Positions 17,585 through 24,489 of a DNA stretch of 64,000 nt are shown here, one piece after another (within the stretch, counting starts at the first letter, position 1; each line of letters begins with the position of its first letter). The translations under genes and the position numbers were made by a program. The notes under the pieces were generated by a model. That model worked only from the letters and a program-made list of their open reading frames with translations. It was not told where the DNA came from and did not search any database. This DNA is from Petrotoga mobilis SJ95. GTDB lineage: Bacteria; Thermotogota; Thermotogae; Petrotogales; Petrotogaceae. The DNA lies in NCBI RefSeq assembly GCF_000018605.1, contig NC_010003.1, positions 1,898,501-1,962,500 of the forward strand, read 5' to 3'.

Positions 17585-19741
17585 ATGGAAGAAACGAAAA
17601 TAAAGGAAAAAGCACAATTTAAAGTAAGCAAGGGATTTCCAGTCTTAGGTACGTCTATAGATAGAGGAGGAGTTAATTTTGGTGTTTTCACGAGAAACGG
17701 AACATCAGTTACTTTAGAGATATATGAAAATTACTATGATGAAGAACCAGCTTTTAAATATGTTCTCGATAAAAAAGAAAATAGAACAGGCAATATTTGG
17801 CACGTTTTTGTTGAACAAGCAAGAGCAGGTATGTCCTATGGTTGGCGTATTGATGGACCTTACAATCCAGAGGAAGGGTTTAGATTCAACAAAAACAAAT
17901 TACTCTTAGATCCGTATGCTAAAGTAATTGGAGGAAGTTTAGATTTTTCGGAAGAATCCATTTTCGGTTATGACAAAAATGATCCTAAAAAAGACCTAAG
18001 TTTTTCTACTTTGGATTCTGCAAAGTCTCAAGTGAAATCTTTTATTTGGGATAGCCGTGGCTATAACTGGAAAAATGATGAAAATCCACGTCATCCACTA
18101 AACGATATGATTATTTATGAACTTCATGTCAGACTTTACACAATAAATCCAAATTCTAACGTAGAACATCGAGGAACTTATAAGGGAATCGCTGAAAAAA
18201 TAAATTATTTAAAAGGTTTAGGAGTAAACGCCGTTGAACTGATGCCCATCTTTGCTTTTCCTTTGAACGATAATCCCAAAGTGAATACTATAACTGGTGA
18301 AAAATTAAAAAATGTATGGGGTTATAATCCGGTAAACTTTTTTTCTGTAACGAGTAATTACAGATATGGTGTAAAAATTGGGGAGGAAATAATCCAGTTC
18401 CAGGATTTAGTTTTTGAATTACACAAAAATGGAATAGAAGTGATATTAGATGTTGTCTTTAATCACACAGCAGAAGGAAACGAATTGGGACCAACTCTCA
18501 ATTTTAGAGGATTAGAAAACTCTGTTTATTATCTATTAAAAAAAGATAACCCAAGATATTATGAAAATTTTTCAGGAACTGGAAACACTATTAATTCTAG
18601 TCATTATGTTGTAAAACAAATGATTTTGGATAGTTTGAGGTATTGGGTTTCCGAGATGCATGTAGATGGTTTTAGATTCGATCTAGCTTCTATTTTAGGA
18701 AGAGATTCAAAAGGAAATTGGATTGGCGATCTGTCTCTATTAAAAGACATTGCTGATGACCCTATTTTGGCTGGAACCAAACTCATAGCAGAAGGTTGGG
18801 ATGCCGCTGGAGGATACTACGTTGGTGATTTTCCCACTGGATGGGCAGAATGGAATGGAAAGTTCAGAGACACAGTGAGAAGATTTGTTAAAGGCGATAA
18901 TGGTGTAGTTTCAGATTTAGCAACAAGAATAGCTGGAAGCCCAGATCTTTTTGAAAAAAGAGGCAGAAAGCCTTACAATAGCGTTAATTTTATTACTTCT
19001 CACGATGGATTTACTATGTGGGATTTAGTTTCTTACAACAACAAGCACAATGATGCTAACGGGGAAAATAACCGTGATGGAACTGACGCCAATTATAGTT
19101 TCAATTACGGGGTTGAAGGAGAGACTAACGACGAAAATATAATAAAACTCAGAAAACAACAAATTAAAAATTTCATAACTATATTAATGGTATCACAAGG
19201 GTTACCTATGATTTTAATGGGTGACGAATTCTGTAGAACTCAATTTGGTAACAACAACGCTTACTGCCAAGATAATTACATTTCATGGGTGGATTGGAGC
19301 AGAAAAGTAAAATTCAACGACATTTTTAATTTTACAAAAAATATGATCCATTTTAGAAAAGTTCATTGTGCACTTAGAAGAGACAGATTTTTTACGGGAA
19401 GAGATCTAAGTGGTGATGGCATAGCAGACATAACTTGGCATGGAGTCAAACCATTCAAACCTGATTTTGGATATTATTCTCACAGTCTAGCGTTCATGAT
19501 AAGTGGCGATGACTATATTCAAGGATGTAAAGAAAAAGACAGTGATATATACGTAGCCTTAAATGCTTTCATAAAGGATTTACAATTTGAAATTCCAAAA
19601 TTACAAAATGGGAAAAAATGGTATAGGGTAGTAGATACATCTGAAGAATCACCCAACGATTTCCTCTTAGAACCTTCTATAGTCAAAGATAATCACTACA
19701 CCGTACATTCAAGAAGCTCAATAGTTTTAATTTCAAAATAA
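17585..19741 (+). CDS. glgX: Glycogen debranching enzyme (GlgX/TreX-type isoamylase)
   Basis: This 718-residue GH13 enzyme hydrolyses alpha-1,6 branches of glycogen or its limit dextrins. An N-terminal CBM48-like domain (about 15-150) precedes the barrel. Catalytic regions are DVVFNH (289-294), GFRFDLAS with nucleophile Asp366 (362-369), AEGWD with acid Glu403 (402-406) and TSHDGF with His-Asp 473-474. No signal peptide is seen, so it is cytoplasmic. ATG 17585 has AGAAGGTG upstream. It has no functional tie to the purine genes before it. The decayed restriction island begins right after its stop. Confidence 0.95.
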   Translation: MEETKIKEKAQFKVSKGFPVLGTSIDRGGVNFGVFTRNGTSVTLEIYENYYDEEPAFKYVLDKKENRTGNIWHVFVEQARAGMSYGWRIDGPYNPEEGFRFNKNKLLLDPYAKVIGGSLDFSEESIFGYDKNDPKKDLSFSTLDSAKSQVKSFIWDSRGYNWKNDENPRHPLNDMIIYELHVRLYTINPNSNVEHRGTYKGIAEKINYLKGLGVNAVELMPIFAFPLNDNPKVNTITGEKLKNVWGYNPVNFFSVTSNYRYGVKIGEEIIQFQDLVFELHKNGIEVILDVVFNHTAEGNELGPTLNFRGLENSVYYLLKKDNPRYYENFSGTGNTINSSHYVVKQMILDSLRYWVSEMHVDGFRFDLASILGRDSKGNWIGDLSLLKDIADDPILAGTKLIAEGWDAAGGYYVGDFPTGWAEWNGKFRDTVRRFVKGDNGVVSDLATRIAGSPDLFEKRGRKPYNSVNFITSHDGFTMWDLVSYNNKHNDANGENNRDGTDANYSFNYGVEGETNDENIIKLRKQQIKNFITILMVSQGLPMILMGDEFCRTQFGNNNAYCQDNYISWVDWSRKVKFNDIFNFTKNMIHFRKVHCALRRDRFFTGRDLSGDGIADITWHGVKPFKPDFGYYSHSLAFMISGDDYIQGCKEKDSDIYVALNAFIKDLQFEIPKLQNGKKWYRVVDTSEESPNDFLLEPSIVKDNHYTVHSRSSIVLISK

Positions 19742-19798: not shown

Positions 19799-19936
19799 GA
19801 GCTGGAGGACGACGGTGAACCTTTCGAGGAGAAGATAGAACGGTTGTCAACACAACTTGCAGAGCAGTTCGAGAAATCAGAAGAATTAAAGAAACAGATA
19901 AAAGCAAATCTGGAGGGGTTGGGATATGGATTCTGA
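19799..19936 (+). pseudogene. hsdM: HsdM C-terminal remnant (type I restriction-modification methylase)
   Basis: An open stretch of 45 codons after an in-frame TAA (19796-19798) encodes the characteristic tail of a type I methyltransferase: DDGEPFEEKIERLSTQLAEQ, a charged coiled-coil stretch, then a final LGYGF. The rest of hsdM is absent; glgX ends only 57 bases upstream. Codon use is more GC-rich than in the neighbours, for example in 19755-19815. Bases 19750-19798 read as IAVDSTRIKVTNRNLR in another frame, which may be a further scrap, but I cannot assign it. The remnant ends in the hinge shared with the next two gene junctions. Confidence 0.7.
19884..19936 (+). repeat. hsdM-tail hinge, copy 1
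   Basis: This 53-bp segment is repeated at 20377-20429 with only two differences (51 of 53 identical by eye). It encodes KKQIKANLEGLGYGF plus the stop, and within it ATGGATTCTGA starts the next gene, so each copy is a stop/start overlap. Confidence 0.9.
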
Positions 19937-20429
19937 TATTATAAAACGAGCTGAGTATACAGAATTCATCAATGAACTAAAAGAGCGCATCCAAATTGCC
20001 CAGACTAAAGCGATTTTGAGCGTAAACAGGGAATTAATTTATCTTTACTGGAACATCGGCAAAAGTATAGTTGAGAAACAAGAGGATATGGGCTGGGGCA
20101 AAAGTGTGGTGGAGCAGTTGGCTAAAGATCTACGGCGAGAGTTCCCAGATGTAAAGGGCTTCTCTTCAAGGAATATCTGGCGGATGCGTGCGTTCTATTT
20201 GGCTTTTACCGAAGATGTTATAAAACTCTCACAGGCTGTGCCAGAAAGTTCATCTAAGGACCTCGCCCAACTTGTGCTGGCTCTCGATGGTGTAAATCTG
20301 CCACAAGCTGTGGCAGAAATTCCCTGGGGACATAATCTTACCATTATAAATAAAATAAAAGACGAAAAACAGAGGAAATTAAAGAAACAGATAAAAGCAA
20401 ATCTGGAGGAGTTGGCATATGGATTCTGA
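19926..20429 (+). CDS. DUF1016 (YhcG N-terminal) protein, truncated and fused to an HsdM tail
   Basis: These 167 residues match the N-terminal domain of the YhcG/DUF1016 family, proteins often found inside type I restriction loci. The motifs NRELIYLYWNIGKSI, GWGKSVVEQLAKDL and EIPWGHN are visible. Full-length relatives are about 340-370 residues and continue into a PDDEXK nuclease-like domain. Here the match stops at IKDEKQR, and the remaining residues are a copy of the HsdM tail (KLKKQIKANLEELAYGF). The nuclease-like half is therefore missing. The start ATG lies in hinge copy 1 and overlaps the hsdM stop. Probably non-functional or altered; translation itself is intact. Confidence 0.8.
   Translation: MDSDIIKRAEYTEFINELKERIQIAQTKAILSVNRELIYLYWNIGKSIVEKQEDMGWGKSVVEQLAKDLRREFPDVKGFSSRNIWRMRAFYLAFTEDVIKLSQAVPESSSKDLAQLVLALDGVNLPQAVAEIPWGHNLTIINKIKDEKQRKLKKQIKANLEELAYGF
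20377..20429 (+). repeat. hsdM-tail hinge, copy 2
   Basis: This near-identical copy of 19884-19936 forms the C-terminus of the DUF1016 gene and contains the start ATGGATTCTGA of the following AlbA_2-type gene. The repeat begins right where the DUF1016 homology ends. Confidence 0.9.
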
Positions 20430-21876
20430 AAAGAGTTTAAGGTTCATGCTATCCCATCCGGAGGGGCAATTTGTGGAGCTGAAGCGATCTGTTTCTAGTT
20501 CGGTTGATCGTGAGATAGTAGCATTCGCTAATTCAGGTGGCGGCCACATCATAGTTGGAGCCGATAATAATGGCAAAGTTGTTGGTATATCTGATGTTAA
20601 TGATCAAATTTCAAGGTTGGAGAGTATAGCCAGAAACTGTGATCCTCCAATACCTTTGAAGATCAGTTCATATACACTAGATGGAAAAGAAATCCTTGAA
20701 GTTGAAGTTCCAGATGGTGAGGATAAGCCTTATTCTTGCGCTTCAGGGTTCTTTCTTAGAAGCGGCACTAGCACCCAGAAGATGAAAAGAGACGAAATTG
20801 TGGAGTTTCTCTACTCAGTGGGACAGGTGAGGTGGGATGAGAAATCATGTAAAGATTTTCGTTATCCGGATGATTTTGACGAGGAGGCATTCAGGTACTT
20901 TCTGGATAGCGCAAAAATAACCTCGGCCGGAATGTCAAGTGAAGACTTACTGATAAATATTGGTGTTGCAAGGAAAACTAGAGAACGATTAATCTTCAAT
21001 AATGCAGGGGTTTTATTCTTTGCCAAAGAGCCGATACGATTTCTGAGACACAACATTGTAGATTGTATACTTCTTGCAGGTACTGATAAGTTGGAGATCC
21101 TCGATAGAAAAGAGTTGAAAGGAAATCTCATGGAAAATGTGAAGCAGGCAATGATATTCCTAAAAATGCACTTGCCTTTAAGATATGAGATTAAGGGATT
21201 AAAAAGGAAAGAATTTTTAGAAATTCCAGAGGAAGCACTACGCGAAGCCATCCTTAACGCCATTATCCATAGAGATTACCATTTTGATACTGCGTGGATA
21301 ACTGTAGAGATATACAGGGATAGGGTAGAGATTTCGGATCCCGGGGGGCTGCCACCGGGGATGCACCCCGAGGACCTCGGTAAGAAGAGTGTCCACAGAA
21401 ACAAGATAATCGCTGACCTTTTTCACAGAATGGGTGAAGTAGAGAAAGCAGGCTCAGGTATCAATCGTATAAGGGATTTGTTGGCGACCAGTGGGTTGAG
21501 CGAGCCAGGGTTTGAGTTTAAATCATTCTTCACAATTATATTCGATAGGAAGCCACAAGTTATAACAGAACTTACAGATAGTGAAATGCTCTTGAAACGT
21601 GCTTATGATGGAGTAAATGAGGGAGTAGGTGATGGAGTAAATGAGGGAGTAAAATTGAGATTATCAAAAGAGTTGATCGAAATCCACGCACGGAAATCTA
21701 TCACCCGCAGAGATATAGAAAAGCTCTTTAATGTATCAACAGCCACTGCTGAAAGAGATATAGCAATGCTAAAAGATGTAAATCTTATAAGGTTCGAGGG
21801 CGCACCCAAAACAGGAAAATATGTTCTGACAGAGAAGGGAAAGAAGATGATAGAGGAGGCGGGGTATGGGTTCTGA
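20419..21876 (+). CDS. AlbA_2/Schlafen-type putative ATP-binding protein (COG2865-like) of a type I restriction locus
   Basis: This 485-residue intact protein has an N-terminal AlbA_2/divergent AAA-4 domain (EGQFVELKRSVSSS, then FANSGGGHIIVGADN), a GHKL-like C-terminal part (AILNAIIHRDYH; VEISDPGGLPPG; GKKSVHRN; EKAGSGINRI) and a final winged-helix segment (SITRRDIEKLFNVSTATAERD). Residues 396-411 are a Gly-Val-rich linker made by a 21-bp unit present twice (21607-21651). Such genes are common passengers between hsdM and hsdS; their exact role is unsettled. The C-terminus ends in EEAGYGF, a third hinge version, overlapping the hsdS start. The start ATG lies in hinge copy 2. Confidence 0.82.
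   Translation: MDSEKSLRFMLSHPEGQFVELKRSVSSSVDREIVAFANSGGGHIIVGADNNGKVVGISDVNDQISRLESIARNCDPPIPLKISSYTLDGKEILEVEVPDGEDKPYSCASGFFLRSGTSTQKMKRDEIVEFLYSVGQVRWDEKSCKDFRYPDDFDEEAFRYFLDSAKITSAGMSSEDLLINIGVARKTRERLIFNNAGVLFFAKEPIRFLRHNIVDCILLAGTDKLEILDRKELKGNLMENVKQAMIFLKMHLPLRYEIKGLKRKEFLEIPEEALREAILNAIIHRDYHFDTAWITVEIYRDRVEISDPGGLPPGMHPEDLGKKSVHRNKIIADLFHRMGEVEKAGSGINRIRDLLATSGLSEPGFEFKSFFTIIFDRKPQVITELTDSEMLLKRAYDGVNEGVGDGVNEGVKLRLSKELIEIHARKSITRRDIEKLFNVSTATAERDIAMLKDVNLIRFEGAPKTGKYVLTEKGKKMIEEAGYGF
21853..21876 (+). repeat. hsdM-tail hinge, copy 3 (short, diverged)
   Basis: The 24 bases ending the AlbA_2 gene encode EEAGYGF and stop, and contain ATGGGTTCTGA, the start of hsdS. They align with the last 24 bases of copies 1 and 2, differing at several positions. 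Confidence 0.7.
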
Positions 21877-22351
21877 GCAAGAATTTAATGAAACAGAAAT
21901 TGGAAAGATTCCAGAAAAGTGGGATTTTAAAGGACTTCAGGAGGTTAGGCAGATAAATATGGGGCAATCTCCTAAATCAGAAACTTATAGCGAAGTTGGA
22001 AATGGGCTGCCTTTTTATCAGGGAAGGAGAGACTTCGGTAGAAAATATCCTACAGTTAGTGTTTATTGCACTGATCCAAAGAAAATTGCCATTAAAGGGG
22101 ATGTCCTTTTAACTGTGAGGGCTCCTGTAGGCGAAATAAACGAAGCAATCGAAGACTGTTGTATTGGTTTAGGGGAGTCTCGGCTCTTAGATTGGATAAT
22201 GGTAACAATGAATTTCTGTATTTTCTTATGAAATATTATGAACGCAAATGGAAGAGTCTTGAAACTGGAACGGTATTTGGTGCAACAAAAAATCGCCTCT
22301 ATCCTTGGTGCTCTAGACGACAAAATCCACATGCCCCCGAAACAGCAGTAG
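21866..22351 (+). pseudogene. hsdS: HsdS specificity subunit remnant (frameshift plus internal deletion)
   Basis: The start (MGSEQEFNETEIGKIPEKW) is a classic type I specificity-subunit N-terminus. The first frame runs through RAPVGEINEA to about 22170. The homology then continues one frame over (GVSALRLDNGN to GTVFGATKN, about 22171-22290). Next comes a jump to a third frame reading QQKIASILGALDDKI (22282-22327), the conserved region that normally follows the first target-recognition domain, and a stop at 22349-22351. At least one frameshift and one deletion are needed. The second recognition domain is lost. Without hsdR and a whole hsdM, the locus cannot restrict DNA as read here. Confidence 0.8.
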
Positions 22352-22640
22352 TGATTACCAAGGAGGAAGTTGTAGATATATTTGGCTTTACCGAGAAGGC
22401 ACGACCAGAAATTTCTATATACATCCGAGAGAAGTTTTTGCAGACGTAATTACAGATCGAGCAGCATCCGTAATTCTTGTCCACAATCATCCATCTAGGG
22501 TCTTAGAACCCAGTAATCAAGATATTTTTATGACAAAGCAACTTGTTGAGGCCGTATCAATTTCGGGTATTAAAGTATTGGACCATTTAATCATATCGAA
22601 AAGGGGACATTTGAGCATGAAAGATAGAGGTTTATTATGA
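22343..22640 (+). pseudogene. RadC-like (JAMM/MPN domain) gene remnant
   Basis: Bases 22400-22640 encode HPREVFADVITDRAASVI, then the JAMM motif LVHNHPS, LEPSNQD and a normal C-terminal end (HLSMKDRGLL, stop 22638-22640). That is the last two thirds of a RadC-like domain. The upstream part (AVVITKEEVVDIFG, 22345-22386) is in another frame and looks like the start of the same domain. No start codon or full frame is left. RadC-like genes are frequent on mobile and defence islands; this copy is dead. Confidence 0.72.
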
Positions 22641-22743
22641 ACTTTCATTTCTTGATTTGGTAATTTATAATGATAGTTAGGATCGTATTTTTTCCCGTAA
22701 AGATTTTGGCGTTCTACCACCCACTTATTTTAAAAGAAAATAG

Positions 22744-22824: not shown

Positions 22825-24489
22825 ATGCTTTCTGATATCGAAATTGCAAGATCTGCAAAGCTAAAAAAAATTGATTTAATCGCAAACGAGCTGGATATTC
22901 CAGAGGAGTACTACAATCTTTACGGAAAGAACATTGCCAAAGTTTCCCACAAATATTTGAATGAACTTAACTTCAAAAATGACGGTAATTTAGTAATGGT
23001 AACTGCTATTACTCCAACGCCTGCTGGTGAAGGAAAAACTACAACAAGTATTTCACTATCCATGGCTTTAAACAAAATCCACAAAAGGTCAATAGTAACT
23101 CTAAGAGAACCTTCTTTGGGTCCAGTAATGGGTATAAAAGGGGGAGCAGCAGGTGGAGGCTACTCTCAAGTACTTCCTATGGAAGACATAAACTTACATT
23201 TCACAGGAGACATTCATGCCGTTACCTCAGCCCATAACCTAATATCAGCAATTTTAGATGATTACATAAAGTACAATAAATATGATATAGATTCAACCCA
23301 AGTCTCTTGGCCTCGAACTATGGACATGAACGATAGGGCTTTGAGAGAAATAATAGTTGCGTTGGGTGGAAAGAAAAACGGTTATCCCAGACAAGACGGT
23401 TTTATAATCACCGCTGCTTCAGAAATAATGGCAATACTATGTTTGATAGAAAATTTGGAAGACTTAAAGAAAAAATTATCTAATATAGTAGTTGCTAAAA
23501 ATAAAAAGGGAGAACCAGTAACTGTAAAAGATTTAGAAATCACTGGGGCTCTTTCTGTACTCTTAAAAGACGCAATTAATCCTAATTTAGTTCAAACAAT
23601 TGAAAATACACCTGCCTTTGTTCATGGTGGGCCTTTTGCAAATATCGCTCATGGAACCAATTCTATTTTAGCAACAAAACTTGCCTTGAAGCTTTCTGAT
23701 TACGTTGTAACCGAAACAGGTTTTGGTTCTGATTTGGGAGGAGAAAAATTCTATGATTTTGTTTCTCCAACTTTTGGCTTAAAACCATCAGCTACGGTTT
23801 TGGTAGCTACAATACGGGCTTTAAAATACCATGGGGGACAAAACTTAAAGGATTTGAATACGCCAAACCTTGAAAGTTTAGAAAAAGGATTGCCTAACTT
23901 ACAGGTTCACGTTGAAAACCTAAAAAAGTACAATATTCCTGTGGTTGTTTCTTTAAATAAATTTTACTCAGATACGGATGAAGAAATCAATATGGTAAAA
24001 GATTATTGTGATAAATTAGGTGTAGAAGTAAGTGTCAACGAAGGATTTGAGAAAGGTTCAGAAGGTGCTATAGACTTAGCTGAAAAAGTGGTAAAAGTTA
24101 GTGAACAACAATCCGAATTGAAAAGTATTTACGATTTTAAAGATCCTTTAGAAGTGAAAATAGAAAAGTTAGCAAAAAATATCTATCGTGCTTCCAAGGT
24201 TGAATATTCTTCGGAGGCCTTATCAACAATTAAATTTTTGAAAAAATACGGATACGAAAATCTCCCTGTAATTGTAGCAAAAACCCAGTATTCTATATCC
24301 GACGATCCTAAAAAACTTGGATTTCCAAAGGACTATACTTTCACAATACGAGATTTTGAACTTTCGGCGGGCGCAGGGTTCATTGTTGCATTGGCTGGAG
24401 ATATATTGAGAATGCCTGGCCTTTCAAAGGTTCCCAATGCAGTGAATATGGACATAGACAATGAAGGAAACATATCCGGATTGTCATGA
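22825..24489 (+). CDS. fhs: Formate--tetrahydrofolate ligase
   Basis: This 554-residue enzyme interconverts formate, ATP and THF with 10-formyl-THF. The ATP-binding loop [10 protein letters not shown] is at residues 65-74, with [19 protein letters not shown] after it and the family-typical C-terminal [21 protein letters not shown] 22825 has AAAAAGGAGGAG upstream. folD, a PatB-like gene and two serine dehydratase genes follow on the same strand. In this setting it may run toward formate to make ATP, as in purine-fermenting clostridia, or supply formyl-THF for PurH and PurN. The direction cannot be told from sequence. Confidence 0.97.

Follow-up and report, generated by a model that had tools for sequence, protein, structure and literature searches.

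Duplicated ends of the hsdM gene, each placed directly in front of the next gene of a type I restriction operon, are probably footprints of repeated insertions at the hsdM 3′ end. One such end lies in the window, a 64,000-nucleotide stretch of the Petrotoga mobilis SJ95 genome (NC_010003.1, positions 1,898,501 to 1,962,500; the genome is a single contig of 2,169,548 bases), and others are present in the loci compared with it (designated by L numbers). Type I operons often carry unrelated genes, some of them antiviral, between hsdM and hsdS; the duplicated ends are a simple mark that gives such insertions an orientation and that one can look for in any set of genomes.

A Decayed Type I Restriction Locus in the Window

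The locus, all of whose features are on the forward strand, has a G+C content of ca. 40-46% and forms an island among flanking genes that are mostly at 29-40%. To its left, a GH13-like gene ends at position 19741, and to its right a formate-tetrahydrofolate ligase-like gene starts at position 22825 (both named by eye).

The locus begins with a 45-codon remnant of the hsdM C-terminus (19799-19936) that carries the native tail ending in GYGF and a stop codon. It is recognized by an HsdM-tail profile with E = 3e-22 and is 78% identical to the tail of the intact HsdM of locus L148. No hsdM body or start was found upstream of this remnant, and the hsdM of the sequence-only reading is no more than this short frame. 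The next gene (19926-20429) is a truncated DUF1016_N gene (Pfam PF17761, E = 5.9e-34) that runs in frame into a second hsdM tail. It covers only positions 1-110 of the 137-position model, and a YhcG_C PDDEXK nuclease domain is absent according to Pfam, so that the protein lacks the two-domain composition of DUF1016/YhcG. An intact passenger gene follows (20419-21876), with SLFN_AlbA_2, HATPase_c_4 and winged helix domains by Pfam; its relatives in L040 and L041 are 58-63% identical. Relatives of this AlbA_2 gene were discarded as a guide to orthologous loci, being mostly found outside comparable hsd loci.

The remainder of the locus is broken. The N-terminal part of hsdS (21866-22231) matches Pfam PF01420 with E = 0.0023, which is under the curated cut-off, and shows 50-52% identity to plasmid HsdS proteins in tblastn. 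It is followed by a frameshifted middle part (22232-22409), with a further fragment ORF at 22159-22449, and by what is left of the C-terminal part of a radC gene (JAB domain; 22410-22640; PF04002, E = 9.9e-27, model positions 49-121 of 121), corresponding to the last 73 residues of the domain. A further 60 bp (22637-22696) are left over from the 3′ terminus of an IS110-family transposase gene that has ten other copies in the genome, at 86-87% identity. No hsdR adjoins the hsdM and hsdS remnants, and the HsdM body and a complete HsdS are also missing, which leaves the locus without the components of a functional type I system. It is a dead, decayed type I restriction locus, the fossil of a passenger insertion. 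A contig of a metagenome-assembled genome, L039, has a nearly identical arrangement from inside the DUF1016 gene onward; an assembly error at the DUF1016/AlbA_2 junction is therefore unlikely, and, being a near-identical copy of the window locus, this contig gives no independent evidence.

Three Junctions of Unequal Origin

The three consecutive junctions of the locus (hsdM to DUF1016, DUF1016 to AlbA_2 and AlbA_2 to hsdS) had been proposed to share one design. All three do have an 11-base overlap, with upstream frames ending at 19936, 20429 and 21876 and downstream ATG codons at 19926, 20419 and 21866, and every upstream frame ends in YGF and a stop codon; they are not, however, three equal copies of a hinge. 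Copy 1 (19884-19936), which consists of the hsdM end and the first 11 bases of the next gene, and copy 2 (20377-20429), which lies immediately 5′ of the AlbA_2 start, match at 51 of 53 bases, as alignment confirmed. Of the 42 bases that they have in common upstream of the start codon, 40 are identical. A gapped alignment widens the similarity to 62-64 bases at 92% identity, its 5′ edge lying inside a short A/G-rich stretch through which the DUF1016 end is joined to copy 2. Junction 2 contains a genuine additional hsdM tail.

The third copy was described as shorter and diverged. The hinge at 21862-21876 matches copies 1 and 2 at 19 of the last 25 bases, compared with 14 for the next best unrelated end and a mean of 8.3 among the ends of 63 genes of the window (ORFs of at least 100 codons). 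The copy is essentially GGGTATGGGTTCTGA, that is, four bases plus the first eleven of hsdS, and relatives of the AlbA_2 protein terminate at about the same residue without GYGF. Since 11 of the matching bases belong to hsdS and the AlbA_2 relatives stop alike, junction 3, which is mostly hsdS's own start, is best read as the AlbA_2 gene entering an hsdS start that was formerly contained in an hsdM end.

The Overlap Is Native to the hsdM End

The sequence-only reading took the hinge to be the native HsdM C-terminus plus the HsdS start. An identical 11-base overlap, in an unchanged register relative to the hsdM codons for LGY(G/E)x-stop, is found between hsdM and hsdS in Staphylococcus, Klebsiella, Priestia, Shewanella and Pseudomonas plasmids, and between hsdM and a full-length DUF1016 gene in Deinococcus plasmids. 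Junction 1 has its closest relative in L148, where HsdM overlaps by 11 bases a full-length DUF1016 protein that is 62% identical to the fragment in the window and contains both DUF1016_N and PF06250; hsdS follows the DUF1016 gene there without a tail copy. Because an 11-base overlap is the usual junction between hsdM and the next gene in several phyla, junction 1 is native and ordinary.

Among 97 hsdM tails, 72 have a buried ATG at their end, and a purine-rich, Shine-Dalgarno-like motif is present upstream of the buried start in many of them, not in all. Searches with HsdS and AlbA_2 retrieved no relatives of the hinge among plasmids.

Extra hsdM Tails Accompany Passenger Genes in Other Loci

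The HsdM-tail profile was run against 87 sequences. Extra tails without an HsdM body, located directly 5′ of the next gene (hsdS or a second passenger), were detected in L060, L087, L132, L133, L141, L206, L207 and L208, with two of them in L136; most of these tails match the profile with E-values of 1e-6 to 1e-21. For counting, we used loci with both hsdM and hsdS in view and defined as passenger-bearing those with a passenger or a gap of at least 300 bases. An extra tail between a passenger (DUF1016 or Fic) and the next gene was present in 10 of 44 passenger-bearing loci and in none of 22 passenger-free ones (Fisher p = 0.024); since the sample was collected by tail similarity and includes relatives, these counts are not population frequencies. 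The expectation that hinge copies would mark passenger borders and that passenger-free loci would have a single hinge thus fits the passenger-free loci, while in the majority of passenger-bearing loci (34 of 44, L148 among them) no tail copy was found. The idea that passengers entering between hsdM and hsdS regenerate the hinge is supported as a frequent outcome, not as a general one.

The extra tails make up about eight independent cases (the window; L060; L087 with L244; L132; L133 with L136; L141; L206 with L207; L208), which fall in archaea, Thermotogota and Gammaproteobacteria. A single ancestral fusion, named beforehand (for the three junctions of the window) as an outcome that would overturn the idea, is rejected because the cases have differing passengers and tail lineages. 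Pfam identifies the passengers as DUF1016/YhcG or Fic proteins, those of L133 and L136 being assigned through their resemblance to other DUF1016 proteins; DUF1016_N and YhcG_C are both present in L148, L060, L141, L206 and L207. The arrangement that the sequence-only reading had proposed is seen in L060, from Thermotogota, where hsdM, an 11-base hinge, DUF1016, an hsdM tail copy, a second 11-base hinge and hsdS follow one another.

At the DNA level, the tails of a pair are 92% identical in the window, 79% in L060, 91% in L087, 81% in L141, 88% in L206 and 91% in L207, and the third tail copy of L136 shows 93% identity. In most loci the pairs align over ca. 60-125 bp; the alignments are weaker in L132, L133 and L208. 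The length of the repeat differs from locus to locus (53-64 bp in the window), with no common 5′ edge. Each clear insert consists of one DUF1016 or Fic gene and has no transposase or fixed attachment core of its own. In L087 and L141, some copies are frameshifted or joined to the next gene by 1 base only. An upstream tail of L131 (7853-7969) was left uncounted, as it is not downstream of its hsdM, and alignments of L081 and L155 were dropped for want of support from the tail profile.

Filled and Empty Sites

Loci L219 and L141 lie at equivalent positions in two genomes that are related to each other, with flanks that are 85-93% identical. The hsdM end of L219 (117 bp) matches L141 twice, on either side of a DUF1016 insert of ca. 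1.1 kb, and the repeat in L141 passes the hsdM stop by ca. 10 bases, reaching the opening codons of the gene that follows. A second pair is formed by plasmids. In the Pseudomonas plasmids L245 and L246, hsdM and hsdS overlap by 11 bases and there is no insert; the Azotobacter plasmids L087 and L244 carry a related operon with an inserted Fic gene and ca. 85 bp of the hsdM end repeated before hsdS. The L087 hsdM is 83-84% identical to the Pseudomonas plasmid hsdM, the hsdM end of L245 matches both tail copies in L087, and the left copy in L087 retains ATGAGTTCTGAGT, a relic of the hsdS start. Judged from these alignments between species, both pairs bear the signature of insertion with an 85-120 bp target duplication.

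No empty-site relative of the window locus was found, this hsdM tail being absent from the other genomes of its genus. A separate search at genus level, around G345, was confined to two genomes. In E. coli, the loci examined from this hsdM family, among them those of ET450, TW10722 and SCU-115, have no passenger between hsdM and hsdS; a tail fragment in E. coli Z226-6 is an IS-flanked scrap and was set aside.

Foreign and Mosaic Tails

In several loci the extra tail is nearer to the tails of other loci than to the locus's own hsdM: this is the case in L132, L133/L136 (second copy), L208 and L206/L207. The copies in L060, L087 and L141 are nearest to their own hsdM. The related hsdM of L212 matches that of L207 only to ca. 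55 bases before the stop, yet it matches the hsdS-side tail of L207 through to the end. Such a mosaic is as expected if the hsdM end of a donor, together with its passenger, replaced that of the recipient.

L206 and L207 are ca. 90% identical in hsdM DNA and 82% identical in the tail and the hsdS start, and the DUF1016 proteins encoded between the tails are only 34% identical. The DNA similarity stops at the hsdM stop and returns just before the tail. This comparison is the best evidence that passengers may be exchanged between tails. The earlier suggestion was that recombination between hinges could swap modules; the window locus itself is dead, and therefore nothing is being swapped there. 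In L136 modules are stacked, in the order hsdM, DUF1016a, tail B, a DUF1016b fragment, tail A′ and hsdS. We put forward, tentatively and with some reserve, that the hsdM 3′ end, in which the C-terminus of HsdM and the start region of the following gene are both encoded, might for this reason serve as a portable operon hinge: units of a passenger plus an hsdM tail would be gained, stacked and exchanged among bacterial and archaeal type I loci by recombination between tails, and defence genes would find at the hsdM/hsdS boundary a docking site that renews itself.

Origin of the Duplicated Tails

The insertions that we consider probable may have proceeded as follows. The ancestral operon would have had the start codon of the following gene within the last hsdM codons (the 11-base overlap), in many cases closely preceded by purine-rich bases. 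A passenger (a DUF1016/YhcG nuclease, Fic or AlbA_2 gene) would insert at the hsdM boundary, and the insertion would duplicate a terminal stretch of hsdM, from tens to a few hundred bases long, while the next gene keeps its start region. Of this course of events, the sequences show the native overlap, the duplicated tails with their varying length, the filled and empty alleles, the foreign or mosaic tails and the difference in passengers between conserved tails. We infer that the event is an illegitimate recombination, in which another hsd locus often provided homology on one side. The tail copy may be retained because it preserves coupled translation, the initiation region of the next gene lying inside the tail. 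That the next gene's start sits in a short, repeatable stretch also suggests why the hsdM/hsdS boundary would accept insertions. In the window, AlbA_2 would have entered first and DUF1016 afterwards by the same route; alternatively, DUF1016 may later have been trimmed to the tail through a microhomology deletion. Decay of hsdM, DUF1016 and hsdS would have followed. The closeness of the two copies (51 of 53 bases in the core and 92% over the gapped alignment) argues that the event was local or came via a close relative. Against the insertion model speak the passenger loci without a tail copy (34 of 44), the copies in L087 and L141 that are frameshifted or joined to the next gene by 1 base only, and the absence of an empty-site relative for the window; against a translational role of the tail speaks that no more than 72 of the 97 tails bury an ATG and that Shine-Dalgarno-like motifs do not occur in all of them.

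How the homology was supplied may vary. Recombination with a donor hsd locus, homologous within hsdM at the left junction and illegitimate into the recipient tail at the right one, is a form of the insertion explanation whose chances we regard as about even. The tails nearer to other loci on the next-gene side (L132, the second copy of L133/L136, L208 and L206/L207) and the mosaic breakpoint near position -50 in L206/L207/L212 point to it, but a local target duplication fits equally well or better where the copies are nearest to their own hsdM, as in L060, L087, L141 and the window. A tandem duplication of the whole hsdM-(passenger)-hsdS unit, with a subsequent deletion that spared only the 3′ end of the second hsdM, would suit several features: copy 2 of the window abuts a truncated DUF1016 gene, as a deletion from DUF1016 into a downstream hsdM would leave it, the copies in L206 and L207 keep ca. 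55 HsdM codons, and that in L132 extends over ca. 180-250 bases. We nevertheless consider it unlikely, given that the inserts in L060, L087, L141, L206, L207 and L208 are single complete passenger genes of ca. 1.1-1.4 kb, that between passenger and tail no remnant of hsdS was seen, and that the flanks of the empty sites are otherwise collinear.

Dedicated exchange of modules, in which a recombinase or regular crossover between tails moves a unit of passenger plus hsdM tail, would account for the different DUF1016 genes between the conserved tails of L206 and L207 and for the stacked modules in L136. This appears quite improbable, since no recombinase was seen within the inserts (the recombinase gene of the Azotobacter plasmid is upstream of hsdM, outside the insert) and the repeats vary in length and have no fixed core. 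Finally, overlaps are common, and any gene that ends in frame within the hsdS start ends in YGF and a stop codon. Chance or convergence of this kind explains most of junction 3, whose 15-base hinge includes 11 bases that are those of hsdS, but as a general explanation it has almost no likelihood: the 40 of 42 identical bases upstream of the start refute it for junction 2, and the profile scores of most extra tails elsewhere argue against it as well.

Relation to Known Systems

The sequence-only reading knew of no description of such a mechanism, which was too strong a statement, as insertion with long target duplication was described in 2000 by Nobusato et al. for restriction-modification genes of Helicobacter pylori (as cited in PMC3031569 and PMC1643837). 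As presented in those citations, the Helicobacter case resembles ours in the long direct target repeats of variable length that flank the insert, in the existence of an empty-site relative and in the lack of an obvious transposase inside; it differs in that the restriction-modification genes are the insert there, whereas here the insert goes into the hsdM/hsdS boundary of a restriction operon, and the start of the following gene lies within the repeat. One-copy empty alleles (L219 for L141; L245 and L246 for L087 and L244) and border repeats of tens to hundreds of bases are found in our loci. The tail duplications thus fit insertion with long target duplication, and it is the use of the operon's own coupling junction as the duplicated target that appears to be new. 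The search, which covered open-access literature and few subscription journals, yielded no account of hsdM ends repeated at the borders of passengers.

Homology-facilitated illegitimate recombination, which is homologous on one side and illegitimate on the other, leaves duplicated or chimaeric ends. We infer its operation here from the mosaic tails.

Passengers in type I loci are themselves familiar from the rlo genes of Campylobacter (rloA/rloB; PMC2928727) and from TgvAB on Vibrio cholerae VPI-2 and RloF (PMC11411939), which, like the genes discussed here, are defence-associated genes embedded among hsd genes; in the available text of these two sources, no duplicated hsdM end was found at the borders of the rlo and TgvAB loci. 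Translation is coupled across the hsdM/hsdS stop/start overlap in EcoKI (PMC3510504), which parallels the junctions described above, except that the overlap is 1 base long in EcoKI and 11 bases long in the hsdM family studied here.

Junctions and Borders of the Compared Loci

In Deinococcus grandis (locus L080, 8143-8153), the junction between DUF1016 and hsdS is likewise an 11-base overlap, and the DUF1016 gene end has no similarity to hsdM despite this overlap. Since the 11 bases are kept there without hsdM similarity, the length of the overlap may itself be under selection. In both L206 and L207, where a duplicated hsdM 3′ end (tail copy) follows the DUF1016 passenger, a conserved spacer of ~100 bases separates the DUF1016 stop codon from the tail copy and contains a hairpin-like GTCCCAC...GTGGGAC 5′ of the latter.

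Two plasmids of Pseudomonas in which the hsdM/hsdS hinge is empty (L245 and L246) have, in the interval from hsdS to hsdR, a gene annotated as PDDEXK nuclease domain-containing; therefore, the other junction of the operon also docks passengers.

The right edge of the window island is marked by a 60-bp leftover of the end of an IS110-family transposase gene (22637-22696), of which ten more copies (86-87%) are present elsewhere in the genome. The window locus and its flanking housekeeping genes are nearly alike in JARRBB010000091.1, a MAG contig titled Thermotogaceae bacterium, which probably comes from a close relative and was assigned to the wrong bin.

Repeats in the AlbA_2 Protein Linker

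Short in-frame tandem repeats were observed in the linker of the AlbA_2/HATPase_c_4 protein, N-terminal to the C-terminal winged helix, in the window (DGVNEGV, 21606-21651) and in loci L041 (TPQV), L040 (KFGV), L042 (GGVF) and L131 (RKLG). Judging from these repeats, the linker is a possible slippage site.
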